Below, piece after piece: positions 14,393 to 30,278 of a DNA stretch of 42,389 bases. The position numbers were made by a program, and so were the translations under genes. The stretch is from NCBI GenBank assembly GCA_944376265.1, contig CALWCD010000012.1:1-42389 (forward strand), written 5' to 3'. Origin of the DNA: an uncultured Clostridia bacterium (GTDB lineage Bacteria > Bacillota > Clostridia > Oscillospirales > Acutalibacteraceae). The notes beneath the pieces are model-generated. The model was not told the DNA's origin and did not search any database. It saw only the letters and a program-made list of their open reading frames with translations. The first letter of the stretch is position 1. Each line of letters starts with the position of its first letter.

Positions 14393-14693
14393 CAAAAAAG
14401 CTCTTTCGTCTTCTCCTGCCCACAGGGACAGAAGAGACGAAAGAGTAAAGCTTCCGCGGTACCACTCTTCTTCATTTCAACAACGAAATGCACCTTTGCG
14501 GGTACGGGCCGGGCCATTCGGCACAGCTTGATACCCCTGCGCTGGTAACGGGCGCAGCTCCGTCGGCTCCTACTGTTGGTTCGGGCCGCCGTTCAGCGGT
14601 CAGTTCGGCATGTGGCTTCCTGAGTGCCTCGCACCATCCGGCACCTCTCTGACAGGGTCCCACGCTTACTACTCCGCGTCTTCACGTTTTCCG
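14393..14693 (-). ncRNA. T-box riboswitch leader, Leu (CUG) specifier
   Basis: A canonical T-box on the minus strand. Stem I has GAAGACGCGGAGTAGTA on the 5' side and GAACTGACCGC on the 3' side, forming the loop E pair AGTA/GAA. The specifier is CTG at 14601-14603, followed by the conserved A and a GCGG/CCGC stem. The distal loop elements CAGAGAGGTGCC and GGTGCGAGGCAC are present. The antiterminator core GTGGTACCGCGG spans 14453-14464. A terminator, CTCTTTCGTC with GACGAAAGAG, is followed on the minus strand by CTTTTTTG (14393-14445). The TGGT bulge fits the A discriminator of tRNA-Leu. Confidence 0.93.
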
Positions 14694-19395: not shown

Positions 19396-20457
19396 ATGAA
19401 ACATTTCCTGGACCGAATTTCCGAAAAGACCGCCCGCATCCTGGCCCTGTGCTTTTTGGCCGGGGGGATTTTGCTGCTGGCCGCCGCCCTGTGGATCAAC
19501 TTTGGGGGACTGGGCAGCAGCACCACCCTGACCACCTACGCCATGGGCTCCTACGTCCAGCAGACCGTCTACGGCAAAGGCCGGGAAGAGGCTGCCAAGC
19601 AGGCCTCCTCCGCGGTGACGGAGCTGGAAAACCTGATCTCCTGGCGGGTTGAGGACAGCGACGTGCAGCGGCTGAACCAGGCGGCGGGCACGGAGTTTCT
19701 GGAGATCGACCAGCGGACCTGGAACGTGCTCTCCACCGCCTTGCAGGTGTGCCAGGCCAGCGGCGGCGCCTTCGACGTGACCATTGCCCCCATCAGCTGG
19801 CTGTGGGATTTCGACCAGGACCCCCACCTTCCCTCCGGTGACCTGATCCAGTCCCTGCTGCCTGCGGTGGACTACGAAAACGTCTCTCTGCTGGAGGACG
19901 GCACCGCCGCCCTTCAGACCCACGACACCGCCATGGATCTGGGAGCGGTGGGAAAGGGCGCCGCCTGCGACGCCGCCGTGGAGGTCTACCAGGAGCTGGG
20001 GGTGGACCAGGCCGTGGTGTCCGTGGGGGGCAGCGTGGGAGTCTGGGGGGAAAAGTCCTCCGGCTCCCCCTGGCGCATTGCCCTGCGGGACCCGGACTCC
20101 CAGGGCTCTCTGGGCGAGCTGGACATTTTAACCGGGTTTCTCTCCACCTCCGGCAGCTACGAAAAGCAGTTCACCCAGGACGGGGTCACCTACCACCACA
20201 TTCTGGACCCGGACACCGGCTATCCGGCGGAAAGCGGCCTTGTCTCCGTGACGGTGTGGAGCGGCAGCGGGGTGCTCAGCGACGCCCTGTCCACCGCCTG
20301 CTTTGTGCTGGGCATGGAGGACAGCCTGCCCCTTCTGGAGCAATTTGACAGCGGGGCGGTGTTCATCACCCAGGACCATGAGATCTACGTGACGGAAAAC
20401 CTGGCGGACGGCTTCACCCTGGACTCGGACCAGTACACTCTGGCCGGGACCCTGTGA
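19396..20457 (+). CDS. apbE: FAD:protein FMN transferase (ApbE family)
   Basis: A 353-residue ApbE/Ftp-type flavin transferase, which attaches FMN covalently to a Ser/Thr of exported or membrane flavoproteins using FAD and Mg2+. Residues about 14-37 form a membrane anchor, so the enzyme acts outside the membrane. Family motifs are YAMGSYVQQTVYG, GGAFDVTIAP, DLGAVGKGAACD, HHILDPDTGYPAE and the C-terminal DALSTACFVLG. It leads an operon with a NusG-II protein (7 bases on) and a Gx transporter, a grouping seen in Rnf- and electron-transfer-linked loci. No FMN-binding target protein is in the window. Confidence 0.93.
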   Translation: MKHFLDRISEKTARILALCFLAGGILLLAAALWINFGGLGSSTTLTTYAMGSYVQQTVYGKGREEAAKQASSAVTELENLISWRVEDSDVQRLNQAAGTEFLEIDQRTWNVLSTALQVCQASGGAFDVTIAPISWLWDFDQDPHLPSGDLIQSLLPAVDYENVSLLEDGTAALQTHDTAMDLGAVGKGAACDAAVEVYQELGVDQAVVSVGGSVGVWGEKSSGSPWRIALRDPDSQGSLGELDILTGFLSTSGSYEKQFTQDGVTYHHILDPDTGYPAESGLVSVTVWSGSGVLSDALSTACFVLGMEDSLPLLEQFDSGAVFITQDHEIYVTENLADGFTLDSDQYTLAGTL

Positions 20458-20464
20458 GGCGCCT

Positions 20465-20851
20465 ATGGAGGAAAAACGCTTTCTCTCCCCCCTGGGCCTG
20501 GTGTTCTGCGGGCTGCTGGTGCTGGCGGCGGGAGTGCTGTATCTGGGGCTGTCCCTGGCTCCCCAAGGGACAAGGGCCATTGTGGAAAAAAGCGGGGTAG
20601 TGGTGCTGGAACGGGATTTGTCCCAGCTGACAGAGCCGGAAACCTTCACCCTGGAAGGGGAGCAGAACATCCAGGTGACGGTGGAGCTCTCCCCCCAAGG
20701 GGCGGCGGTGGTGGCCTCCGGCTGTCCGGACCAGGTGTGCGTGCGAACCGGGACTTTGACCAAAGCCGGAGAGACTGCCGTGTGTCTCCCCGCCAGGGTT
20801 ACCCTGCGGCTGGAGGGCGGCGGGGACTCTGTGGACGCCACGGTGTACTGA
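20465..20851 (+). CDS. NusG domain II-containing membrane-anchored protein
   Basis: A 128-residue protein with one N-terminal membrane helix (about 8-34), then a small extracytoplasmic NusG domain II-like beta domain. The conserved SGCPDQVCVRTGTL ... GETAVCLPARV segment carries three cysteines in the family's usual places. Its function is not established. It is regularly found next to ApbE and Gx-transporter genes, and in Listeria-type flavin-based electron-transfer loci the EetA protein is, as I recall, of this kind. The start codon has only a weak GAGG ahead, so translation is probably coupled to apbE. Confidence 0.85.
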   Translation: MEEKRFLSPLGLVFCGLLVLAAGVLYLGLSLAPQGTRAIVEKSGVVVLERDLSQLTEPETFTLEGEQNIQVTVELSPQGAAVVASGCPDQVCVRTGTLTKAGETAVCLPARVTLRLEGGGDSVDATVY

Positions 20852-20866
20852 GGAAAGGAGGTCCCC

Positions 20867-21373
20867 ATGAAACGAGCATCCGGCCGGGTGGCCTTTACCG
20901 GGCTGCTGGCTGCCCTGGCCCTGGCCCTCTCCTTTTTGGAGGGGCTTCTGCCCCCCCTGCCCATGATGCCCCCCGGGGCCAAACTGGGGCTTTCCAACAT
21001 TGCCGTCATGTACGCCGCGGGAAGCCTGGGCCTGCCCACCGCCCTGTTTCTGTCGGTGTTCAAAGGGCTTTTCGCCCTGATGACCCGGGGCGCCATGGCG
21101 GGGATTATGAGCCTGTCCGGCGGACTGTGCAGCACGGTGGTCCTGTGGCCGCTGCTGAACAAGACAAAGGCATCCCTGGGAGTGGTGGGAGTCTGCGGGG
21201 CACTGGCCCACAACGCCGCCCAGCTGGGCGCGGCCTATGTCCTCACCAGCACCAGCGTGCTGTTCTACGTGCCCTTCCTGCTGGTGTTCGGGGTCCTGAC
21301 GGGCCTGGTCACCGGCCTGGTGCTGAAGGTGACTCTGCCCCCTCTGGAGCGGCTGAAACGCTTTTTGGGATAG
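20867..21373 (+). CDS. Gx transporter family protein (HepS component I-like)
   Basis: A 168-residue membrane protein with about five hydrophobic helices and many Gly pairs (GLLPPLPMMPPGAKLGLSNI). It belongs to the Gx-transporter family, also annotated as heptaprenyl diphosphate synthase component I, which resembles ECF-type substrate-binding membrane subunits. The ATG follows AAAGGAGG, 15 bases after the NusG-II gene. A prenyl synthase often follows in related loci but is absent here. EetB of flavin-based electron transfer is of this type. The transported substrate is unknown. Confidence 0.85.
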   Translation: MKRASGRVAFTGLLAALALALSFLEGLLPPLPMMPPGAKLGLSNIAVMYAAGSLGLPTALFLSVFKGLFALMTRGAMAGIMSLSGGLCSTVVLWPLLNKTKASLGVVGVCGALAHNAAQLGAAYVLTSTSVLFYVPFLLVFGVLTGLVTGLVLKVTLPPLERLKRFLG

Positions 21374-21418
21374 AAAAACTCCTCCGTATGAGGTTTCATA
21401 CAGAGGAGTTTCGTTTTC
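21374..21418. terminator. Bidirectional terminator
   Basis: AAACTCCTCCGTATGA and TCATACAGAGGAGTTT pair with one mismatch. T-rich flanks exist on both strands (CGTTTTCTCT on plus, GTTTTTCTA on minus). It serves the convergent Gx-transporter and lipoprotein genes. Confidence 0.85.
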
Positions 21419-21428
21419 TCTTGCTGCG

Positions 21429-22073
21429 TTACTTCACCAGGCAGCCGCCCCATTCCACTGCCGTAAAGCCGTTGCGTTCCGGAGCGGTCAGCTCTTGGGC
21501 AGGGATCTCCACCGGATCTTCCACAGGCTTCCAGGCCATGAACACTCGCAGCAGGGTGTCGGGGGCCGGCGCTATGGACAGCTTCGCCGCTTCCGTGTAG
21601 GCCTCACGCTGGAAGGCGATCAGGTTGTAAGTGCTTTCTTCCATCTGGGGCATCCAGTAGACGATGAACTCGTTGGCCTCCTTCCGGGTGAGGCCCAACT
21701 GGCTGAGAGCGTCCTCCAGGAAGGATGCGGTGTCCTCCCCGGCCACGCAGAAACCCTGGGAGAAGTCGTACTCCACCTGGTCCTGGCCTTCCCAGTAGAG
21801 GTAGTTGTAGGTTTGGCCTTCAGCGTCTGTCAAAGCGCCCTCCGGGCTGGCGGTGACCGTCCAGCCGTCCTGGTAGGCAGGATACGTGCAGGTCAGCTCC
21901 CCGGCATAATCCAGCTTCACGGTGACTTGGGTCTCCTCCTCCGGGTAGAGGTAGATCACAGGCTTTGCGGCAGTTTCGTACTCTTCTTGGGACCCTTGGC
22001 AGGCGGCAAGTCCGTAGACGCACGCCAGCGCCAGCAGAAGCGCCAAAACTCGGTTTCGGTTCTCTTTTCTCAT
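21429..22073 (-). CDS. Lipoprotein of the uncharacterised KPVIYLYP/YLYWEG family
   Basis: A 214-residue lipoprotein precursor. The signal peptide ends in lipobox LAAC at about residue 25, so the mature protein should sit on the outer face of the membrane. The mature part has a recurring pattern I recognise from uncharacterised proteins: AAKPVIYLYPEEETQVTV, then TYPAYQDGWTVTASPEG and NYLYWEGQD, with a second half containing EFIVYWMPQMEE. No catalytic motif is evident. The ATG at 22073 follows AAAGGAGGT at good spacing; longer frames upstream lack a signal peptide. It appears monocistronic. Confidence 0.8.
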   Translation of the reverse strand: MRKENRNRVLALLLALACVYGLAACQGSQEEYETAAKPVIYLYPEEETQVTVKLDYAGELTCTYPAYQDGWTVTASPEGALTDAEGQTYNYLYWEGQDQVEYDFSQGFCVAGEDTASFLEDALSQLGLTRKEANEFIVYWMPQMEESTYNLIAFQREAYTEAAKLSIAPAPDTLLRVFMAWKPVEDPVEIPAQELTAPERNGFTAVEWGGCLVK

Positions 22074-22193
22074 CTGCCATACCTCCTTTTTCAAAATGCC
22101 TTTTCCACAACTTCCTTCCTCAGGGTGGAAACATTCCCCCTGTACCCTCATTGTACCACTCCCGAGCCTGGAACACAATGTCTCTCCCGCTCT

Positions 22194-22676
22194 TTAGGTG
22201 TCCAGCTCCCCGCAGTACAGGGTGCGGGTTTGGGCGTCGTACACGGCGGCGGTGAAGTTGTAGGACCCCCGGCCCCGGACGTCCGTCTCCGGGCTGTGGG
22301 TCTGGTCGTCCCAGAAAAACCAGCACCCTTCCTCCACCCGGGGCAGCAGGGCTTTCCCGTCCTTGCCGGTGAGATAGGGCCCTGCCAATTCCCGCCCGTA
22401 AAGCAGGACTTCCCCGTCCTCCTTGACCGGCAGGGCATGCCACCCCTCCCCGGTCTGGGCGGTCTGTTCCAAGGCGGCGGCGTCTGTTGGGGAAAGCTCC
22501 ACCTTCCAGTACTGGGTGCCGTCCCCCATCCAGCCGTGTTCGTCCCAGTATTCCGAAAGGGTGGAGTCCGTCAATGTCACCCCCAGGGTGCCAGGGAGGG
22601 AATCCCGGCTCCCCACGCAGCCCGCGCAGAGAAGGGCCAGGGCCCCTGCCAAAAAAACAGTGAAAAAGCGTTTCAT
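22194..22676 (-). CDS. Small putative lipoprotein
   Basis: A 160-residue protein with a typical lipoprotein signal, MKRFFTVFLAGALALLCAGC (lipobox CAGC, Cys20). The mature domain has many Trp and Gly residues (SEYWDEHGWMGDGTQYWKV, EEGCWFFWDDQ) and ends at a cysteine-containing strand. I do not recognise the family. It lies 120 bases upstream of the other lipoprotein gene on the same strand, but no clear operon signal joins them. Confidence 0.78.
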   Translation of the reverse strand: MKRFFTVFLAGALALLCAGCVGSRDSLPGTLGVTLTDSTLSEYWDEHGWMGDGTQYWKVELSPTDAAALEQTAQTGEGWHALPVKEDGEVLLYGRELAGPYLTGKDGKALLPRVEEGCWFFWDDQTHSPETDVRGRGSYNFTAAVYDAQTRTLYCGELDT

Positions 22677-22757
22677 GCAATCATCTCCTTTTGCCGCCAG
22701 TATACACCCCTTTCCCCCGGGAGCGCAACGACCGGACTTTTTGAAAGGGAATACCCG

Positions 22758-22786
22758 TTGACAATCTGCTCAATGTTATCTATAAT
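22758..22786 (+). promoter_or_regulatory. Perfect consensus promoter upstream of the first CNNM/CorC gene
   Basis: TTGACA (22758-22763), a 17-base spacer and TATAAT (22781-22786). This implies strong transcription of a leader of about 225 bases. Confidence 0.92.
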
Positions 22787-22824
22787 GAAGTCACTACTAA
22801 CCACAAAGAGAGGTCACATCCATC

Positions 22825-22965
22825 ATGGACGACGGTGACAGTCACCCTGCCAGCGCCACTGTAAACACAATAACCCATTCGGATAGAAAGCATAACTTGC
22901 CGCGGTTTTTCCCGGCAGGCTGTGTTTTTTTGTGTTTTCGGAGCCGGTTCCACCCGCGGAAGTAG
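22825..22965 (+). CDS. Putative leader peptide ORF with acidic N-terminus (46 codons)
   Basis: ATG follows GAGAGG by 11 bases and opens a 46-codon frame beginning MDDGDSHPASATVN, ending RSRFHPRK then TAG. Three of the first five residues are Asp. The frame runs straight through the intrinsic terminator at 22891-22931. A comparable ORF (25771-25884, minus) precedes the second CNNM/CorC gene. The two share an MD start, acidic residues and an H-[SN]-x(0-1)-[DN]-R-[KN]-x-[NK]-L block (THSDRKHNL here, CHNANRNVKL there). I infer a regulatory leader peptide whose translation decides terminator folding. The codons past the terminator are probably irrelevant. Confidence 0.5.
   Translation: MDDGDSHPASATVNTITHSDRKHNLPRFFPAGCVFLCFRSRFHPRK
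22891..22931 (+). terminator. Leader attenuator upstream of the first CNNM/CorC gene
   Basis: CATAACTTGCCGCGG pairs with CCCGGCAGGCTGTG around a TTTTT loop, with one bulge and one mismatch, and is followed at once by seven T (22925-22931). It lies about 90 bases before the gene start and inside the leader ORF, so most transcripts should end here unless something prevents folding. Confidence 0.82.
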
Positions 22966-23018
22966 GGCCGCTTGGTTTCTCATTCATTTCCCATCACCAC
23001 TAAAGGAGTGCGCTCATT

Positions 23019-24344
23019 TTGGAAATTTTACTGCAAGTTGTGTTAATTCTCATCAACGCCTTTTTCGCCGCCACAGAGCTGGCGGTGGTGTCCCTGAACA
23101 GCACCAAGCTGCGCAAGCTGGAGGAGGACGGCAACAAGACCGCCTCCAAGCTTTTAAAAATGGTGGAGGAGCCCTCCGCCTTTCTGTCCACCATCCAGGT
23201 GGCCATCACCCTGGCGGGGTATTTGGGCAGCGCCTTCGCCGCGGAAAACTTCTCCGGGAACCTGTCCAACTGGCTCTACTACACCCTGGGCTTCCAGGCA
23301 CTTTCCCTCAAGGCCCTGAACACCGTTTCCATCATCATCATCACCATCATTCTCTCCTACTTCACCCTGGTGTTCGGCGAGCTGGTGCCCAAGCGCATTG
23401 CCATGCAGAAGCCCTATGAGGTGGCAAAGCTGGCCTGCGGGGTCATCCGGGGGATGGCCTTTGTCCTGCGGCCGGTAATCTGGCTGCTGAGTGTTTCCGT
23501 CAACGCTGTGCTGCGGCTGCTGCGGCTGAAGGTGGAGGCGGAAGAGGAGAGCGTCACCGAGGACGAGATCCGCATGATGGTGGACCTGGGAGGCCAGCGG
23601 GGCACCATTGACGAGGACGAACAGGAATGGATTCAAAACGTGTTCGACTTTGGGGACATCTCCGTGCGGGAGGCCATGACTCCCCGCAACGACATGGACG
23701 CTCTGCCCGATGACGCCGACGACCAGGAGATCCTGGAAATGATCCGGGAGTGCGGCCGCAGCCGGATGCCGGTGTACCAGGAGAACATCGACACCATTGT
23801 GGGCATTCTGAACGCCCGGGACTTTCTGCTGGACCGGAACTCCGGGAAAAACACTCCCCTGAAGAAGCTGCTGCGCCCCGCCTACTTTGCCCCGGAGACC
23901 ATTAAGGCCGACAACCTGTTCAAGGAGATGCAGAAGGAAAAGGTCCACATTGCCATTGTGGTGGACGAATACGGCGGCACCGAGGGCATCATCACCATGG
24001 AGGACCTGCTGGAGGAGATCGTGGGCAACATCTACGACGAGTTCGACCAGCCGGAGCAGCCGGAAATTGTCCCTCTGGGGGAAAACCAGTGGCGGGTGTC
24101 CGGCGCCACGCCTCTCAGCAGCCTGGTGGATGACCTGGACCTGCCTCTGCCGGAAAGCGACGACTACGACACCTTGGGAGGCATGATCGTCACCCGCCTG
24201 AGCAGCATCCCCAAGGACGGGGAGGAGCTGGACCTGGAGGTCAACGGCGTGGCCCTCCACGTGGAGCGCATTCGGGACCACCGCATCGAGAGCGTGGTGG
24301 TCCGGCTGCTGGTGCCCAAGGGGAAGAAACAGCGGGTCTCCTAA
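23019..24344 (+). CDS. CNNM/CorC-type (HlyC/CorC, 'hemolysin') metal transport protein
   Basis: A 441-residue membrane protein. The CNNM (DUF21) transmembrane domain (about 1-180) has three to four helices and the [15 protein letters not shown] signature. Two CBS domains (about 205-330) follow, with [20 protein letters not shown] and [21 protein letters not shown] CorC_HlyC domain ends the protein (about 345-435). Relatives export Mg2+ or sometimes Co2+. The old 'hemolysin' label is not supported by mechanism. The start is TTG at 23019, 11 bases after AAAGGAG. A non-ATG start plus an attenuated leader implies tight dosage control. A convergent paralogue follows. Confidence 0.92.
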
Positions 24345-24362
24345 AAAGCCTGACACAGCAGA

Positions 24363-24395
24363 GGAGCTGCCGTTTTTCCCGGCAGCTCCTTTTTT
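24363..24395 (+). terminator. Intrinsic terminator of the first CNNM/CorC gene
   Basis: GGAGCTGCCG and CGGCAGCTCC form a 10-base-pair stem followed by TTTTTT. Confidence 0.93.
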
Positions 24396-24425
24396 GTGCC
24401 TCTTCCAGGCGCCAGGGGTGGGTGT

Positions 24426-25691
24426 TTACTTGTCGGAGGACTCTTCCTCTTCCGGCTGTTCCAGTTTGGTGACCCGCACCTTCTGGATCCGGTTGCTGCT
24501 GACTTCCTCCACCTTGATGGACAGGCCGCCGTACTGGAAGGAATCTCCGTCCACAGGCACCTTGCCCATCCGTTCCATAATCCAGCCGCCCAGGGAGACG
24601 CTGTCGGCCTCGTCCTCGATGTGGAAGTAGGAACAGAAGTCGTCGAAGGTCAGGTCGCCGTCGATAAGGTATGTATGGTCGTCCAGCTGCTGGAAGGACT
24701 CCTCCTGCTCGTCGTGCTCGTCCCAGATCTCGCCCACCAGCTCTTCCAGGATGTCCTCCATGGTGACAATGCCCAGGGTGCCGCCGTACTCGTCGATGAC
24801 CACGGCAATGTGGGACTGGTGAGACTGGAGCAGCTTCAGCAGGTCGCTGACCTTCTCCGTGGGATGGATGAAGATGGGCGGGGTGATGATCTCCCGGATG
24901 GGCTTCTGGGTGACGCCGTTGCCGGTGTAGAAGTCCTTCTGGTGGATGACGCCCACCACCTTGTCGATGTCGTCGTCATACACCAGCAGGCGGGAGAAGT
25001 GAGACCCGGTAAAGCTCTGGGCGATCTCCTCCTTGGTGGAGTCGGCGCTGACGGCAATCAGGTCCACCCGGGGGGTGAGAATGTCCTGGGCTTCCAGGTC
25101 CCGGAACTCCACGGCGTTTTTCAGCAGGGCGCCCTCGTCCTTGTCGATGCTGCCGTCCCGCTGGGCCTCCTCCAGAAGCATCATCAGCTCCTCGGGAGAC
25201 ATTTTGGAATCCTCCTCGCTTTTCAGCAGCTTGGAGATCAGCTTTTTCCACTGGAAGAACAGGAAGTTGAGGGGGGTGAGGATGAAGATCAGCAGGTTGA
25301 TGAGGGGGGCGCTGAACATGGCGAACTTCTCGGGGAAGTCCTTGGCAATGCTCTTGGGGGTGATCTCACCGAAGATCAGCACTACAATGGTGACCACCAC
25401 TGTGGACAGGGTGGCGCCCATGTCCCCGTAGAACTTCACAAACAGCAGGGTGGCAATGGCGGACACGGCAATGTTCACAATGTTGTTGCCGATGAGGATG
25501 GTGGAAATGAGCTTGTCATAGTTTTCCGCCAGACGGGCAGCCAGCTGGGCCCGGCGGTTTCCGCTGTCCGCCAGCACCTTGATGCGGATGGAATTCATAG
25601 AGGAAAAGGCGGTCTCCGTGGCGGAGAAGTAGGCGGACATGATGATGCAGAACAGCATAATCAATATGCTGGGCAGTTCATTTGCAAACAT
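24426..25691 (-). CDS. CNNM/CorC-type metal transport protein, second paralogue
   Basis: A 421-residue protein with the same plan as the 23019 gene: a CNNM membrane domain (about 1-145, [19 protein letters not shown]), two CBS domains (about 200-330, [20 protein letters not shown] and [20 protein letters not shown]) and a C-terminal CorC_HlyC domain. The two differ throughout, so this is an old duplication, not a recent one. Mg2+ or other divalent-metal efflux is the likely role from family knowledge. The ATG follows AAGGAG by 11 bases. The gene converges on its paralogue and has its own promoter, leader ORF and attenuator. Confidence 0.92.
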
Positions 25692-25759
25692 AATAAAAGA
25701 AACTCCTTACATTTTCGTTTTCATTGATTCAAATTCCGTAAAAAACCTAAAATAAACAC

Positions 25760-25803
25760 AAAAAACACACCTATTCCCGCAAACGCACCAGGGGGACAGG
25801 TAT
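25760..25803 (-). terminator. Leader attenuator upstream of the second CNNM/CorC gene
   Basis: On the minus strand ATACCTGTCCC pairs with GGGAATAGGTGT (G-U pairs allowed) and is followed by GTG and TTTTTT. The stop codon of the leader ORF lies inside the 3' arm. It sits about 70 bases before the start codon. Confidence 0.78.
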
Positions 25804-25884
25804 GTTACACACAATGAAAACAAGCTTTACATTCCGGTTCGCGTTATGACAAGGTGTACAATCGTCACTACTGGAACTGTCCAT
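25771..25884 (-). CDS. Putative leader peptide ORF (37 codons) upstream of the second CNNM/CorC gene
   Basis: ATG at 25884 opens MDSSSSDDCTPCHNANRNVKL and ends with TAG (25771-25773) in the terminator stem. AAAGGA lies 14 bases upstream, a loose but possible ribosome site. It shares the MD start, early acidic residues and the H-[SN]...R..[NK]-L block with the leader at 22825-22965, and a TCATGGAC start context. Both sit between a strong promoter and an attenuator for homologous genes, which is why I list so short a frame. Translation is unproven. Confidence 0.45.
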   Translation of the reverse strand: MDSSSSDDCTPCHNANRNVKLVFIVCNIPVPLVRLRE

Positions 25885-25922
25885 GAAAAAAGATCACATC
25901 CTTTTGTTTCGTATCAGCATTG

Positions 25923-25951
25923 ATGATACCGTGTTTTTCTCAAAATGTCAA
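25923..25951 (-). promoter_or_regulatory. Promoter of the second CNNM/CorC transcript
   Basis: Minus-strand TTGACA (25946-25951), a 17-base spacer and TATCAT (25923-25928). The leader to the start codon is about 225 bases, close to the length at the first paralogue. Confidence 0.85.
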
Positions 25952-25989
25952 GGGCTTCCTCCCTTCCCCTATGGGAAAGAAGGAAGCCC
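25952..25989 (-). terminator. Hairpin after the Sir2 gene, probable terminator
   Basis: GGGCTTCC(T) and AGGAAGCCC close a long stem, 20 bases past the Sir2 stop codon. The T-run after it is broken (TTGACATTTT) because it doubles as the -35 of the next promoter. Confidence 0.6.
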
Positions 25990-26010
25990 AGGTTTTCACA
26001 TTCCGGGTGT

Positions 26011-26739
26011 TCAAAGGCCCGCGCAGTGTGCCAGAGTTTCCACCAGGTCCTCCCGGATGACCAGATCCGCCCGGGAGTCGTAAGGGGTGGGGTCCCGGTT
26101 GAGGATGACAAGCTTCGCCCCGGGAGACAGGTACTCCACCAGCCCCGCCACCGGGTACACCACCAGGGAGGTGCCCGCCACCACCATCAGGTCCGCCTCC
26201 TGGGCATAGCGGATGGCAAGGCGCAGGTCCTGCTCATTCAGGCTCTCCTGGTAGAGCACCACGTCCGGCCGGATGACCCCGCCGCACTCACACCGGGGCA
26301 CCCCTGTGGTGCCGGTGACGCAGCTCATGTCGTACCGCTTCCCGCAGGACAGGCAGTAGTACCGGTTCTCGTTGCCGTGAAGCTCGATGACATTCTTGCT
26401 CCCCGCCATCTGGTGAAGCCCATCGATGTTCTGGGTGATGACGGCCCGCAGCTTTCCCTCCTGCTCCAGCCTGGCCAGGGCGTAGTGGGCCCGGTTGGGC
26501 CGGGCGTCGGGGTAGAGCATCACGTTGCGCATAAAGTCGTAAAACTCCTCCCTGTGCCGGACAAAATAGGTGTGGGAGAGCATCTCCTCGTAGGAGCGGC
26601 CCTCCTTCTTCTGCCGGTACAGCCCGTGGGCACTGCGGAAATCCGGAATGCCGCTGGCGGTGGACACCCCGGCCCCGCCCAGGAAAATGGTCCGTTTGCT
26701 CTCTTCCAGCCACTGCTTCAAGGTCTCTTCCTGTGTCAC
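26011..26739 (-). CDS. cobB: NAD-dependent protein deacylase (Sir2 family)
   Basis: A 242-residue sirtuin. NAD-binding motifs GGAGVSTASGIPDFR and TQNIDGLHQMAG, the catalytic His in IELHGN, and a four-cysteine zinc site (CLSCG ... CECGG) are all present. It removes acyl groups from protein lysines using NAD+ and yields nicotinamide and O-acyl-ADP-ribose. The start is GTG at 26739, seven bases after AAGGAGGGG, overlapping the exonuclease III stop as GTGA, so the two are translationally coupled. The longer frame upstream lies inside the exonuclease gene and is rejected. Confidence 0.93.
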   Translation of the reverse strand: MTQEETLKQWLEESKRTIFLGGAGVSTASGIPDFRSAHGLYRQKKEGRSYEEMLSHTYFVRHREEFYDFMRNVMLYPDARPNRAHYALARLEQEGKLRAVITQNIDGLHQMAGSKNVIELHGNENRYYCLSCGKRYDMSCVTGTTGVPRCECGGVIRPDVVLYQESLNEQDLRLAIRYAQEADLMVVAGTSLVVYPVAGLVEYLSPGAKLVILNRDPTPYDSRADLVIREDLVETLAHCAGL

Positions 26740-27509
26740 AGCAGGTCCCCTCCTTCTTTCAAAACAAGCTCCACCGGGCAGTGGTCGCTGCCCTCCACCT
26801 CCGAAAGGATCCGGCTGTCCTCCAGGCGGGGGATCAGCCGCTCGTCCGCCAGAAAGTAGTCGATCCGCCACCCGGCGTTGTTTTTCCGGGCGTTGAACAT
26901 GTAGCTCCACCAGGAGTAGGCCCCCTCCAAATCCGGGTAGAAATGCCGGAAGGTGTCCACAAACCCGGAAGCCAGCAGCTCGGAGAACTTTCCCCGCTCC
27001 TCGTAGGAGAACCCGGCATTGCCCACGTTGGACTTGGCGTTTTTCAGGTCGATGGGTCGGTGGGCCACGTTCATGTCCCCGCAGACGATCACCGGCTGCT
27101 GCTCCCGCAGGCGGGCCAGGTACTCCCGAAAGGCGTCCTCAAAGGCCATGCGGTAGTCGATGCGCACCAGGTCCCGCTGGGAGTTGGGGGTGTACACCGT
27201 CACCAGGGTGAAGTCCTCATACCGTGCGGCAAGGACTCTCCCCTCCTCATCAAACTCCGGCAATCCCATGCCCCAGGTCACCTCCAGGGGCTCTTTTTTG
27301 GAGAAAACAGCCGTGCCGGAATAGCCCTTCCTGGTCACAGCCGAGTTCCAGTACTCATAGTAGCCGGGGAAATCGAAATCGGCCTGCTCCTTCTGCATTT
27401 TCGTTTCCTGCAGGCAGATCACCTCCGGGGCTTCCCGTTCCAGAAAATCCGAAAAGCCCTTTCCCATGCAGGCCCGCAGGCCGTTGACGTTCCAGGAGAC
27501 CAGCTTCAT
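26736..27509 (-). CDS. xth: Exodeoxyribonuclease III / AP endonuclease
   Basis: A 257-residue EEP-fold nuclease. The family motifs are MKLVSWNVNGLRA, VICLQETKMQ (metal Glu), GDMNVAHRPIDLKN, WWSYMFNARKNNAGWRIDYF and the terminal GSDHCPVE (catalytic His). It cleaves at abasic sites and has 3'-5' exonuclease activity in base-excision repair. The ATG at 27509 follows AAAGGATGA. It is the first gene of a two-gene operon with the sirtuin. Length and motifs are standard. Confidence 0.96.
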   Translation of the reverse strand: MKLVSWNVNGLRACMGKGFSDFLEREAPEVICLQETKMQKEQADFDFPGYYEYWNSAVTRKGYSGTAVFSKKEPLEVTWGMGLPEFDEEGRVLAARYEDFTLVTVYTPNSQRDLVRIDYRMAFEDAFREYLARLREQQPVIVCGDMNVAHRPIDLKNAKSNVGNAGFSYEERGKFSELLASGFVDTFRHFYPDLEGAYSWWSYMFNARKNNAGWRIDYFLADERLIPRLEDSRILSEVEGSDHCPVELVLKEGGDLL

Positions 27510-27581
27510 GTTCCCATCATCCTTTCCCTTCCCCCACCCGGGGAAAATTTCCAATTTTTTAAAGTATTTTTCAGGCGGCCA

Positions 27582-27590
27582 TGCTATAAT
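27582..27590 (+). promoter_or_regulatory. Extended -10 promoter of the cyclophilin gene
   Basis: TGCTATAAT, 31 bases before the start codon. No good -35. Confidence 0.65.
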
Positions 27591-27620
27591 GTGAAAAACG
27601 CAACCAAGGAGGAGATTTTC

Positions 27621-28148
27621 ATGCAAAATCCCATTGTCACCATTGAAACCACCCAGGGCACCATCACTGTGGAGCTGTACCCCGAAGTGGCTCCCAACAC
27701 GGTGAACAACTTCATCTACCTGGTGAAGCGGGGCTTCTACGACGGCACCATCTTCCACCGGGTCATCCCCGGCTTCATGATCCAGGGCGGCGACCCGGAA
27801 GGCTCCGGCATGGGCGGCCCCGGCTACGGCATCAAGGGCGAATTCGCCATGAACGGCTTCCAGAACGACCTGAAGCACACCACCGGCGTCATTTCCATGG
27901 CCAGGTCCCAGCGGCCCAACTCCGCCGGCAGCCAGTTCTTCATCATGGTGGACGACGCCCCCTATCTGGACGGCCAGTACGCTGCCTTTGGCAAGGTGAC
28001 CTCCGGCATGGAGGCGGCCCAGGCCATTGTGTCCGCTCCCCGGGACCGTGCCGACCGCCCCTACGAGGACCAGATCATGGAGAAGGTGACCGTGGAGACC
28101 TTCGGTGTGGACTATCCCGACCCCGTCACCGGTCCCGAGCACGGCTAA
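27621..28148 (+). CDS. Peptidyl-prolyl cis-trans isomerase, cyclophilin type
   Basis: A 175-residue cytoplasmic cyclophilin with no signal peptide. Core motifs are GTIFHRVIPGFMIQGGDPEG (Arg of the active site), ISMARSQRPNSAGSQFFI and YAAFGKVTSGME. It speeds cis-trans isomerisation of Xaa-Pro bonds. The length is typical of bacterial single-domain enzymes. The ATG follows AAGGAGG. It is monocistronic, between its own promoter and a terminator. Confidence 0.95.
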   Translation: MQNPIVTIETTQGTITVELYPEVAPNTVNNFIYLVKRGFYDGTIFHRVIPGFMIQGGDPEGSGMGGPGYGIKGEFAMNGFQNDLKHTTGVISMARSQRPNSAGSQFFIMVDDAPYLDGQYAAFGKVTSGMEAAQAIVSAPRDRADRPYEDQIMEKVTVETFGVDYPDPVTGPEHG

Positions 28149-28178
28149 GGGGGCTGCGCCCCGGGCGTGACGCGGGAA

Positions 28179-28219
28179 CGTGCGCTTCGCTTACTCCCAG
28201 CGCCGGAAACCATGAGCTC
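28179..28219. repeat. Direct repeat, copy 1 (41 bases)
   Basis: Starts CGTGCGCTTCGCTTACTCCC and ends TGAGCTC. Copy 2 at 28299-28339 is the same except for one base, exactly 120 bases on. Flanking sequence is also loosely similar, suggesting a decayed 120-base tandem unit. Both strands stay open, but I see no gene. Confidence 0.85.
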
Positions 28220-28298
28220 GCTGTCCGCGGGGTTGCGCACCGGGCACGCCGCGCCTGTGCTGGAGGCTGGCGCGCGTCCGCGCCGTGAGAAGCGGGGG

Positions 28299-28339
28299 CG
28301 TGCGCTTCGCTTACTCCCAGCGCCGGAAACCGTGAGCTC
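28299..28339. repeat. Direct repeat, copy 2 (41 bases)
   Basis: Second copy of the repeat at 28179-28219, with one A-to-G difference. It lies in the gap between the cyclophilin stop and its terminator, so the repeats may be transcribed as a 3' untranslated region. Confidence 0.85.
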
Positions 28340-28363
28340 CCGGTCCGCACACAACTAACTCTC

Positions 28364-28391
28364 AGAGGGAGGCCTTCGGGCCTCTCTTTTT
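28364..28391 (+). terminator. Intrinsic terminator of the cyclophilin gene
   Basis: AGAGGGAGGCC-TTCG-GGCCTCTCT followed by a T-run, meeting the 3' end of the convergent phosphorylase gene. Confidence 0.88.
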
Positions 28392-28392
28392 G

Positions 28393-29703
28393 TTACACCT
28401 CTTCGATACGCTCCAGGATCAGGGGACCCATAACGGGGGCTTCCTGTCCCACCTTCAACGCGGAGAGGAACCGCTCCCGACCCCGGTGGCAAAGGTCTTC
28501 TCTCTGGGCGTAAAGCAGGGCAATGGGCTCGCCCTTTGCCACGGCGTCCCCCTTGTTTTTCAGCAGGACGATGCCGGCTCCGTAGTCAATGGGGCTGTCC
28601 TTTGTCTCCCGGCCAGCGCCCAGTTCCACGGCGGCCAAACCGCACTCCTCGGCGTTTAAGCGGGTGAGATACCCTGTCTCGGGGGCGGACACCTCCAGAC
28701 AGACCTGGGAGAGGGGAAGCTTTTCCGGCTGGAGGACGCAGCTGCCGTCGGCCCCCTGGGCTTCCACCATGTCCCGGAATTTCTCCAGGGCCTTTCCCGA
28801 GGCCACCGCCTGGGAAGCAAGCCCCCGTGCCTCCTCCAGAGTGGAGGCCTGTCCCCCCAGGTAGACCATGTTGGCAGAAAGCTCCAGGCAGAGCTCTCTC
28901 AGGCGGGGGTCTCCCCTGCCGGACAGCACCTGGCAGGCCTCCTGGACTTCCAGAGCGTTGCCCACGCACCGGCCCAGGGGCATGTCCATGTCGGTGATCA
29001 GGGCCACGGTGCGCCGTCCCACCTGGGCGCCGATGCGGACCATTTCCCGGGCCAGCGCCCGGGAGTCCTCCCGGGTCTTCATAAAGGCGCCGGAACCCAC
29101 CTTCACGTCCAGCAGGATGGCGTCGGCGCCGGCGGCGATCTTTTTGGACATGATGCTGGAGGCGATCAGGGGCAGGCTTTCCACCGTGGCGGTCACGTCC
29201 CGGAGAGCGTAGAGCTTCTTGTCCGCCGGGCACAGGTTCCCCGACTGGCCGATAATGGAAAGCCCCGTCTCCCGGACGATCTGGAAGAACTCCTCCCGAG
29301 GGATGGCGGTGCGAAAACCGGGGATGCTTTCCAGCTTGTCCACGGTGCCGCCGGTGTGGCCCAGACCCCGGCCGCTCATCTTGGCGATCTTCACTCCGCA
29401 GGCCGCGGCAATGGGCCCCAGGATCAGGGAGGTTTTGTCCCCCACCCCGCCGGTGGAGTGCTTGTCCACCTTCACCCCGGGGATGGAGGAAAGGTCCACC
29501 ATGTCCCCGGAATGGGCCATTTCCATGGTCAGGTCCCCGGTTTCCCGGCGGGTCATGCCCTGGAAAAAGATGGCCATCATCAGGGCAGAGGCCTGGTAGT
29601 CGGGGATCTCCCCCCGGGTGAAGCCCTGGACGAAGAAGCGGATCTCCTCCCCGCTCAGTTCTCCCCCCTCCCGCTTTTTGTGGATGATATCGTACATGCG
29701 CAT
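28393..29703 (-). CDS. pdp: Pyrimidine-nucleoside phosphorylase
   Basis: A 436-residue family-II nucleoside phosphorylase with the signature KVDKHSTGGVGDKTSLILGP (about 78-97) and MSGRGLGHTGGTVDKLE (about 108-124). It splits thymidine, deoxyuridine and uridine with phosphate into base and (deoxy)ribose-1-phosphate. Full length, motifs intact. It is the last gene of a six-gene salvage operon whose cytidine deaminase feeds it deoxyuridine/uridine and whose aldolase uses the deoxyribose product, though no phosphopentomutase is present here. DeoA (strict thymidine phosphorylase) is the close alternative; length and Firmicutes setting favour Pdp. Confidence 0.93.
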   Translation of the reverse strand: MRMYDIIHKKREGGELSGEEIRFFVQGFTRGEIPDYQASALMMAIFFQGMTRRETGDLTMEMAHSGDMVDLSSIPGVKVDKHSTGGVGDKTSLILGPIAAACGVKIAKMSGRGLGHTGGTVDKLESIPGFRTAIPREEFFQIVRETGLSIIGQSGNLCPADKKLYALRDVTATVESLPLIASSIMSKKIAAGADAILLDVKVGSGAFMKTREDSRALAREMVRIGAQVGRRTVALITDMDMPLGRCVGNALEVQEACQVLSGRGDPRLRELCLELSANMVYLGGQASTLEEARGLASQAVASGKALEKFRDMVEAQGADGSCVLQPEKLPLSQVCLEVSAPETGYLTRLNAEECGLAAVELGAGRETKDSPIDYGAGIVLLKNKGDAVAKGEPIALLYAQREDLCHRGRERFLSALKVGQEAPVMGPLILERIEEV

Positions 29704-29726
29704 GGATTACTTCCCCCCTATGGGAT

Positions 29727-30278
29727 TTATTGCAGATACAGATTCATATACCAGGCGTCAAAGGACAGGCCGTTTACCTTCATGAAGTTTTTGTACAGGC
29801 CCATTTTCTGGAAGCCCACCTTCTCGTAAAGGGCGATAGCGGGAGCGTTGTCCGCGCGCACCTCCAGCTGGAGCACCTCCAGTCCGCAGTCTTTGGCAAA
29901 CTGGATGAGAGCCTCCATGGCTCGCCGTCCCACCCCCTGGTTCCAGTAGGCCTTCCCCACGGAGATGGCCACTCCTGCCCGGTGGGCCACCCGCTCCCGA
30001 GTGGTCAGGGCATTCACAGAGGAAATGGACACCACCTCATCCCCTACGAAACCTGCCAGCATGATGGATTTCTCCGCCCTCCGCTGCAGCTCCAAAAAGG
30101 CCCGCTCCCGGTCCTCGGCCATGGGAAAGCCGTTCTCCCCAAACAGCAGGTTGTCGCTTTCCCCGCCCACCCGGTTCAGGTAAGCCAGCACCTTGGGGGC
30201 GTCGTCGGGGACAGTCTCCCGGAGCAGAAGGGCCTGTCCGTTCTTCAGGGTATAGGTTCTGGGTTCCAATTTGCTCAT
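29727..30278 (-). CDS. GNAT-family N-acetyltransferase
   Basis: A 183-residue GNAT acetyltransferase. The acetyl-CoA-binding stretch is GVAISVGKAYWNQGVGRRAM (motif A, Q/R-x-x-G-x-G/A type, about 103-122), and the later LEVRADNAPAIALYEKVGF segment is typical of RimI/RimL-like members. The substrate is not predictable. The ATG at 30278 follows AAAGGAG. It lies 23 bases upstream of pdp and 34 bases after the deaminase, so it is co-transcribed with salvage genes, but its link to that pathway is unclear. Confidence 0.85.
   Translation of the reverse strand: MSKLEPRTYTLKNGQALLLRETVPDDAPKVLAYLNRVGGESDNLLFGENGFPMAEDRERAFLELQRRAEKSIMLAGFVGDEVVSISSVNALTTRERVAHRAGVAISVGKAYWNQGVGRRAMEALIQFAKDCGLEVLQLEVRADNAPAIALYEKVGFQKMGLYKNFMKVNGLSFDAWYMNLYLQ

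Follow-up and report, generated by a model that had tools for sequence, protein, structure and literature searches.

Leader open reading frames with acidic, rare-codon starts and overlapping terminators precede probable Mg2+ exporter genes in Clostridia

Two CNNM genes with similar leaders

We analysed a stretch of 42,389 nucleotides (nt) from an uncultured Clostridia bacterium of the Acutalibacteraceae (GenBank assembly GCA_944376265.1, contig CALWCD010000012.1), hereafter the window; its genome is G000 in our numbering. The window carries two convergent CNNM/CorC genes, each preceded by a leader in which a short open reading frame (ORF) with an acidic start overlaps an intrinsic terminator. 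The features are as follows.

22758-22786, + strand: promoter of leader 1, sigma-70-type, TTGACA-17-TATAAT, 12/12 consensus matches
22793-23018, + strand: leader 1, the 5' untranslated region (5' UTR) of CNNM gene 1, placed from the promoter position
22825-22965, + strand: leader ORF 1, 46 amino acids, MDDGDSHPAS...FHPRK, full peptide MDDGDSHPASATVNTITHSDRKHNLPRFFPAGCVFLCFRSRFHPRK, with coding selection in six genus members
22886-22929, + strand, T7 run at 22925-22931: intrinsic terminator 1, hairpin of -21.6 kcal/mol, wholly within ORF 1
23019-24344, + strand: CNNM/CorC gene 1, TTG start, probable Mg2+/cation exporter (Pfam CNNM, CBS, CorC_HlyC)
25951-25923, - strand: promoter of leader 2, TTGACA-17-TATCAT, 11/12 consensus matches
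25692-25916, - strand: leader 2, the 5' UTR of CNNM gene 2, placed from the promoter position
25884-25771, - strand: leader ORF 2, 37 amino acids, MDSSSSDDCTPCHN...VRLRE, full peptide MDSSSSDDCTPCHNANRNVKLVFIVCNIPVPLVRLRE, with an orthologue at L033
25806-25764, - strand, followed by a T6 run: intrinsic terminator 2, hairpin of -17.9 kcal/mol, its 3' arm holding the stop codon of ORF 2
24426-25691, - strand: CNNM/CorC gene 2, convergent with gene 1 (Pfam CNNM, CBS, CorC_HlyC)

The CNNM, CBS and CorC_HlyC domains of both genes score above the Pfam gathering thresholds, and both have sequence relatives among the solved CNNM/CorC structures in the Protein Data Bank, e.g. 7m1t; by analogy, the products are probable Mg2+/cation exporters. 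With transcription assumed to start 7 nt past the -10 box, both leaders measure about 225 nt. An initial annotation of this DNA had described strong promoters at both genes, and these are the two top-scoring of nine promoter-like sites in positions 20000-30000, where shuffled sequences give 2.1 (standard deviation 1.6). The anatomy it had described (a leader of about 225 bases, an acidic ORF and an overlapping intrinsic terminator) holds at both genes and recurs in the 36 further leaders presented below. The upstream stretch examined for a third CNNM-like gene of the same genome (L053, contig C66) contains no acidic leader ORF.

A leader family upstream of cation transporter genes

Leaders of this anatomy form a real family, beyond chance, with 36 further examples in other genomes. 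The 38 assembled leaders, the window's two included, come from Oscillospirales and other Clostridia. Downstream lie 33 CNNM genes, four genes for P-type cation ATPases (L093, L165, L175 and L202) and, in one case, the contig end (L128), so that every identified downstream gene (37/37) encodes a cation transporter or CNNM protein. Of these CNNM genes, 23 match gene 1 of the window best and 10 match gene 2. Within the genus, relatives of gene 1 with M[DN]DGDSHPAS or MDDADGG leaders occur at six loci in five other genomes (L004, L005, L007, L008, L074 and L075), while the leader-2 type is found before one relative of gene 2 (L033, peptide MDSSSSDDCTPCHTLIPNFILIAYDMPVPILRE, the orthologue of leader ORF 2). 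In genome G003 (contig C32, reverse strand of L005, near 510) the gene-2 promoter leads directly into the middle of a CNNM gene, the leader and N-terminus being gone; this is a deletion or an assembly error. Promoters with 11-12 of 12 consensus matches precede 28 of 36 leaders, compared with 0.3% of shuffles. The peptides range from 17 to 58 residues and diverge widely past about residue 10.

A start-plus-terminator pattern matched 51 stretches of the contig collection, 17 of them clostridial leaders (some loci repeated) with a CNNM gene (15), an ATPase gene (1) or the contig end (1) downstream; the other 34 have no co-directional CNNM match within 2500 nt, ATPases not having been searched for. 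In 394 genomes of the order a pattern of this type marked 33 places, 13 of which are leaders followed by a CNNM or ATPase gene, and neither gene lies downstream in 18 tested of the 20 other places. Patterns of this type were also run over 391 genomes of the class, where matches were mostly chance-like; those judged real lie in G000, G619 (L173) and G679 (L243, an mgtE leader discussed below), L244 was rejected as coding sequence, and the remaining places were judged from the listing alone. Run over 295 genomes of the order, a terminator-only pattern that ignores the ORF gave 70 rows, of which about 40 loci were inspected, and matched nine leaders: L093, L116/L203, L117, L118, L188, L189, L190, L204 and L208.

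Coding selection on the leader ORF

The search patterns did not demand an open reading frame. In 37 of the 38 leaders no stop codon interrupts the frame between codon 8 and the outermost pair of the terminator hairpin; the two alternative frames are open in 20 and 11 leaders, and shuffled sequences give 19.3. When the core helix is taken as the border, 36 of 38 are open (other frames 18 and 11; shuffles 17.8), and the two exceptions, L156 and L204, have their stop 2 nt ahead of the helix. With one representative per group (25 in total) the counts are 24 against 9 and 8 for the outermost-pair border, and 23 against 7 and 8 for the core helix.

The six genus members show the same preference in their substitutions. 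The ratio of nonsynonymous to synonymous polymorphism (pN/pS) is 0.08 in the first ten codons and 0.30 in the last 17, the same 17 codons giving 1.21 and 1.04 in the other frames, and in the last six codons, 3' of the terminator, the variable columns at codon positions 1, 2 and 3 number 1, 0 and 5; these figures rest on few codons of related sequences, and their direction is clear. The frame is kept through insertions and deletions and past the terminator, and a C-terminus AGYAFLCF..FYPRN, partly encoded by the terminator stem, is conserved in the genus. Judged from these patterns, the leader ORF is translated and under coding selection.

The initial annotation had looked to synonymous-biased conservation of the peptide frame as support for its reading, and this was found even past the terminator. 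Frameshifts or stops in the ORF beside a conserved RNA, which it had named as evidence to the contrary, were looked for and not seen: none of the 37 leaders with a clear hairpin has its stop codon more than 2 nt before the hairpin. The peptide block that it had regarded as shared, H-[SN]...[DN]R[KN]x[NK]L, is present in both window ORFs and is not kept in orthologues (L004 has HVHFIKHNL, L033 HTLIPNFIL); from the sequences, it looks like a coincidence combined with coding of the terminator stem.

The terminator and its overlap with the ORF

All 38 leaders have a hairpin followed by a T run; the best hairpin is ambiguous in L137, which was left out of the geometric counts. In a MAFFT alignment of seven genus relatives, 122 of 126 stem cells are paired and five pairs show two-sided change; sliding by 1-3 columns lowers these figures to 42-62 cells and 0-3 pairs. 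A generic terminator scan of positions 20000-30000 gave no excess (8 sites, 10.7 in shuffles), listing part of terminator 1 (22901-22924) and not terminator 2, and the case for the window terminators rests on their conservation.

To describe the overlap, ribosome footprints of textbook length were placed on the leaders. A ribosome at the stop codon is predicted to cover at least 50% of the 5' strand of the terminator stem in 37/37 leaders, while one at codon 7 would cover no part of that strand. In 35/37 the predicted ribosome-free fold retains 70% or more of the pairs in the terminator. Given the coding selection and the conserved overlap, this geometry predicts that full translation gives read-through and expression, and that early abortion gives termination: the gene would be off by default and on upon completion of the peptide. 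In the model, an early pause and an early drop-off have the same outcome. The direction of control that had been proposed for these leaders, opposite to that of the enterobacterial leader MgtL, thus agrees with the predicted geometry in 37/37 cases. An upstream antiterminator (CCTGCC:GGCAGG) noticed by eye in leader 1 was dropped, being absent from L008.

Acidity and rare codons at the start

Residues 2-9 of the leader peptides are rich in Asp and Ser (MDDGDS, MDSSSSDD, MDSDSSDD and others). N-terminal Asp/Glu-rich nascent chains are known to destabilise ribosomes, an effect counteracted by high Mg2+ (PMC9718836, PMC11282234).

Beyond acidity, rare codons are conserved at the start. Ser codon 6 is AGT in 12/12 leaders that came from the contig-collection search and had not been selected on their serine codon, whereas in the downstream genes 6.5% of serines are encoded by AGT, and at codons 2-12 of 97 genes from the same and related contigs 13.7% (7/51) (Fisher 1.9e-8); the 12 leaders are not independent, and a rough collapse to seven still gives 5e-9 under a naive model. 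The pair GAC-AGT lies within the first nine codons of 35/38 leaders, 13 of which came from a search that required it, and is missing from L008, L204 and L208. Arg in codons 7-15 is encoded by CGA in 11 of 18 cases, compared with 5.4%. Codons 2-12 as a whole lean towards rare codons, with a mean of -1.18 where -0.975 (standard deviation 0.025) is expected. Asp is mostly GAC (79/97 in codons 2-9 of 28 leaders). AGT and CGA are read by weak wobble pairs, G:U and I:A respectively. The codon signature either sharpens a nascent-chain mechanism, slow codons prolonging the exposure of the acidic chain, or points to decoding as the sensor.

Seen by eye, the spacing from Shine-Dalgarno sequence to ATG is long in many leaders (about 11-15 nt; in the window, 22793-22824 on the + strand and 25885-25916 on the - strand), which may weaken initiation or alter early elongation.

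Leaders of the importer gene mgtE

The class-level match L243 precedes mgtE, a gene of a Mg2+ importer family (Pfam). Among the mgtE loci of its relatives, 14/29 have an M[DE]..P or M[DE].[DE]S-like ORF after a Shine-Dalgarno-like sequence, compared with 0 in the reverse complement and 0.14 in shuffles, under a definition set after viewing the loci. The DNA of the L243 leader itself matched, in 61 relatives of G679, itself and short weak stretches. An antiterminator predicted within its ORF, which would turn mgtE on at low Mg2+, is not claimed, since it concerns one sequence and is absent from the fold that includes the 5' UTR. The acidic or acidic-proline peptides recall MgtL (MDSSPVPDK, MDTSPLPDK, MDPNPDSY); their loci are L257, L258, L266, L269-L274, L276, L279, L281, L283 and L284. 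Three of the ten that were scanned with Rfam (L270, L279 and L284) also contain an M-box riboswitch, which suggests double Mg2+ control by ORF and M-box.

The mgtE loci of the window's relatives are of another kind. None of 30 fits the M[DE]-type definition (L287 has a similar MDGSSHSRRTDG), and 20 of the 30 have a GTG-started ORF with ..P-R-S-[SNKT]-[DGN] (PRSSDG type) before mgtE. The window's own genome has such a leader (L316, contig C79), with relatives among L289-L315. These ORFs were found by peptide and not by codon; the listing counts 21, L288 being set aside as a chance match. Their Arg is CGA in 20/20 (1.8% in mgtE genes) and their Ser AGT in 19/20 (6.5% background), while the third base of Pro varies freely. 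Rare codons are thus a feature of both importer and exporter leaders, which early acidity is not. None of six GTG-started leaders scanned gave an Rfam leader match; by eye, these leaders appear structured, with anti-Shine-Dalgarno pairing near mgtE.

Proposed mechanism and its alternatives

Taken together, these data lead us to propose, with a probability of roughly 0.6, that the leader of each CNNM gene acts as a leader-peptide attenuator in which ribosome passage is likely set by free Mg2+. The strong promoter would give an RNA whose first ORF opens with an Asp/Ser-rich stretch in rare, probably slow codons (GAC-AGT, often CGA). A ribosome that passes this stretch would reach a stop codon at, inside or beyond the intrinsic terminator and, by blocking the 5' strand of its stem, would allow RNA polymerase to continue into the exporter gene. 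If the ribosome paused or fell off at the stretch, the terminator would form and the gene would be off. The chance of passage would most likely be set by ribosome stability, and hence by free Mg2+, with the exporter on at high Mg2+. The link to Mg2+ we infer from the genes present and from E. coli work on ribosome destabilisation, by analogy with which it is plausible that Mg2+ sets the outcome through the nascent chain. CNNM-family MpfA protects Staphylococcus aureus from high Mg2+ (PMC6711546).

Several observations weigh against this proposal. The leader is present in 3/54 upstream stretches of related CNNM genes (genus, family, order), and most search patterns fixed the start motif and the distance to the T run, so that both features were partly selected for. 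The ribosome-free folds of L178 and L185 (2/37) lack the full terminator. The ATPase of L165, the only one tested, has the Pfam cation-ATPase domains, and its best NCBIfam models are Ca2+-type, below their cut-offs; the ion could therefore be Ca2+ or another, and an acidic leader before a Ca2+-pump-related ATPase may mean that Mg2+ is not the sole signal, or that this ATPase moves Mg2+. Among named leaders the nearest is E. coli YoaL, whose start (MDRHRRHF...) is not acidic and which was rejected as a relative for that reason. Acidity alone does not predict the conserved AGT and CGA codons, nor is the mgtE leader of the window's genome acidic at its N-terminus; of the explanation by acidity in the initial annotation, the early acidic residues are indeed present, and these two observations are left unexplained.

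A less likely alternative is that decoding is the sensor: the speed on weak wobble codons near the start, rather than acidity, would matter, and low Mg2+ or a scarcity of the tRNAs for these codons would slow the ribosome before the terminator. The AGT at codon 6 of all 12 leaders not selected for it, the excess of CGA and the mgtE leaders that keep both codons and leave Pro free all favour this idea; against it stand the Asp codons, mostly the well-paired GAC, and the three leaders without GAC-AGT. More improbable is a sensor of translation capacity, the ORF reporting EttA, EF-P, L31, ATP or ribosome health and not Mg2+ itself. With EttA, ribosomes pause and drop off less at early acidic residues, those of MgtL included (PMC11282234), and L31 counters the destabilisation that such residues cause (PMC8092293), whereas downstream genes that all encode cation transporters or CNNM proteins (37/37) fit an ionic signal better.

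That constrained synonymous sites (AGT, CGA, GAC) are also what an RNA motif would produce raises the question of a classical metal riboswitch with an incidental ORF, and cation-transporter leaders are often riboswitches. The frame maintained through insertions and deletions and past the terminator makes this very unlikely here, as does the Rfam scan, which found no family at gathering score in the window leaders or six further leader loci; under permissive settings leader 1 gave two matches, both far short of their gathering scores. No conserved structure besides the terminator was found in the leaders, a full covariation search of the remainder not having been made. Most improbable of all, the product could be a small functional protein acting elsewhere in the cell. 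The conserved C-terminus of the genus would suit such a role, but it is in part the coding of the terminator stem, and across the 38 leaders the peptides diverge past about residue 10 and vary more than threefold in length.

Returning to the attenuator, a broader reading, which we offer tentatively and consider rather unlikely, is that one translational Mg2+ sensor, with a slow-codon core [CGA or GAC]-AGT-ANN-GAC, serves import and export alike in Clostridia. Decoding or ribosome stability at this core would depend on Mg2+. Exporter genes (CNNM, cation ATPase) would be wired to it through the overlapping terminator and turned on at high Mg2+, and the importer gene mgtE through other RNA wiring. 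The sensor would then consist of wobble-codon reading and the nascent chain, not of an RNA aptamer or a protein.

Other features of the window

The window also contains a T-box leader (RF00230, 106.6 bits) at 14430-14691 on the - strand and, upstream of CNNM gene 2, a gene for a Sir2-family protein (Pfam) at 26011-26910 on the - strand.

Comparison with known systems

To our knowledge, how Gram-positive bacteria sense excess Mg2+ and induce CNNM-type exporters is largely an open question. Acidic, rare-codon leader ORFs precede likely Mg2+-exporter genes in many gut Clostridia, and their completion probably switches the exporter on. The nascent-chain Mg2+ sensors of the papers considered here are enterobacterial, lie before importers and are on at low Mg2+ (PMC11282234, PMC8092293). 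The initial annotation knew of no leader of this type before CNNM genes, and among the best matches of a non-exhaustive literature search no comparable leader is described before clostridial CNNM, P-type ATPase or mgtE genes; being on at high Mg2+, by itself, is a logic already suggested for CorC and mgpA of Salmonella (PMC12421838). A leader family before probable exporters, with opposite predicted wiring and a codon signature, makes the sensing question testable with small reporters and, if the proposal is true, extends the use of the ribosome as an ion sensor to Clostridia.

Amino-acid attenuators of the trpL type likewise have a leader peptide and let the position of the ribosome decide the fate of an intrinsic terminator. 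Unlike them, the clostridial leaders have no biosynthetic gene downstream, and an early halt is predicted to terminate transcription, not to rescue it. The M-box riboswitch (RF00380) also controls Mg2+ transporters from the leader and precedes some clostridial mgtE genes; the Rfam scan found no M-box in either window leader.

On the side of high Mg2+, Salmonella CorC is suggested to carry its own ribosome-destabilising N-terminus and to be made at high Mg2+, and the leader YoaL may raise the expression of mgpA/yoaE, which encodes a CorC-domain protein, under the same condition (PMC12421838). In CorC (YbeX) the element is the protein's own N-terminus, whereas the clostridial genes have a separate leader, and YoaL overlaps its downstream gene. 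The available part of that source gives no terminator mechanism for either.

Closest in principle are the importer leaders of enterobacteria. MgtQ, a tiny ORF before Salmonella mgtB, destabilises ribosomes through Asp2 and Glu5 and thereby sets the expression of a Mg2+ transporter (PMC8092293); it acts on importer translation through alternative stem-loops, while the clostridial leaders are predicted to act on transcription termination. MgtL, before mgtA in E. coli and Salmonella, resembles the clostridial leaders in being a short ORF that has acidic residues near its start and lies before a gene for a Mg2+ transporter (here a predicted one, of the CNNM family), and ribosome drop-off on it at low Mg2+ is the sensor that controls mgtA (PMC11282234). 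Its peptide differs from the clostridial one, MDDGDSSD, which has no EPDP. MgtL works with a Rho-dependent terminator and turns an importer on at low Mg2+; the clostridial leaders combine an intrinsic hairpin and T run, overlapped by the ORF, with a probable exporter that is predicted to be on at high Mg2+.

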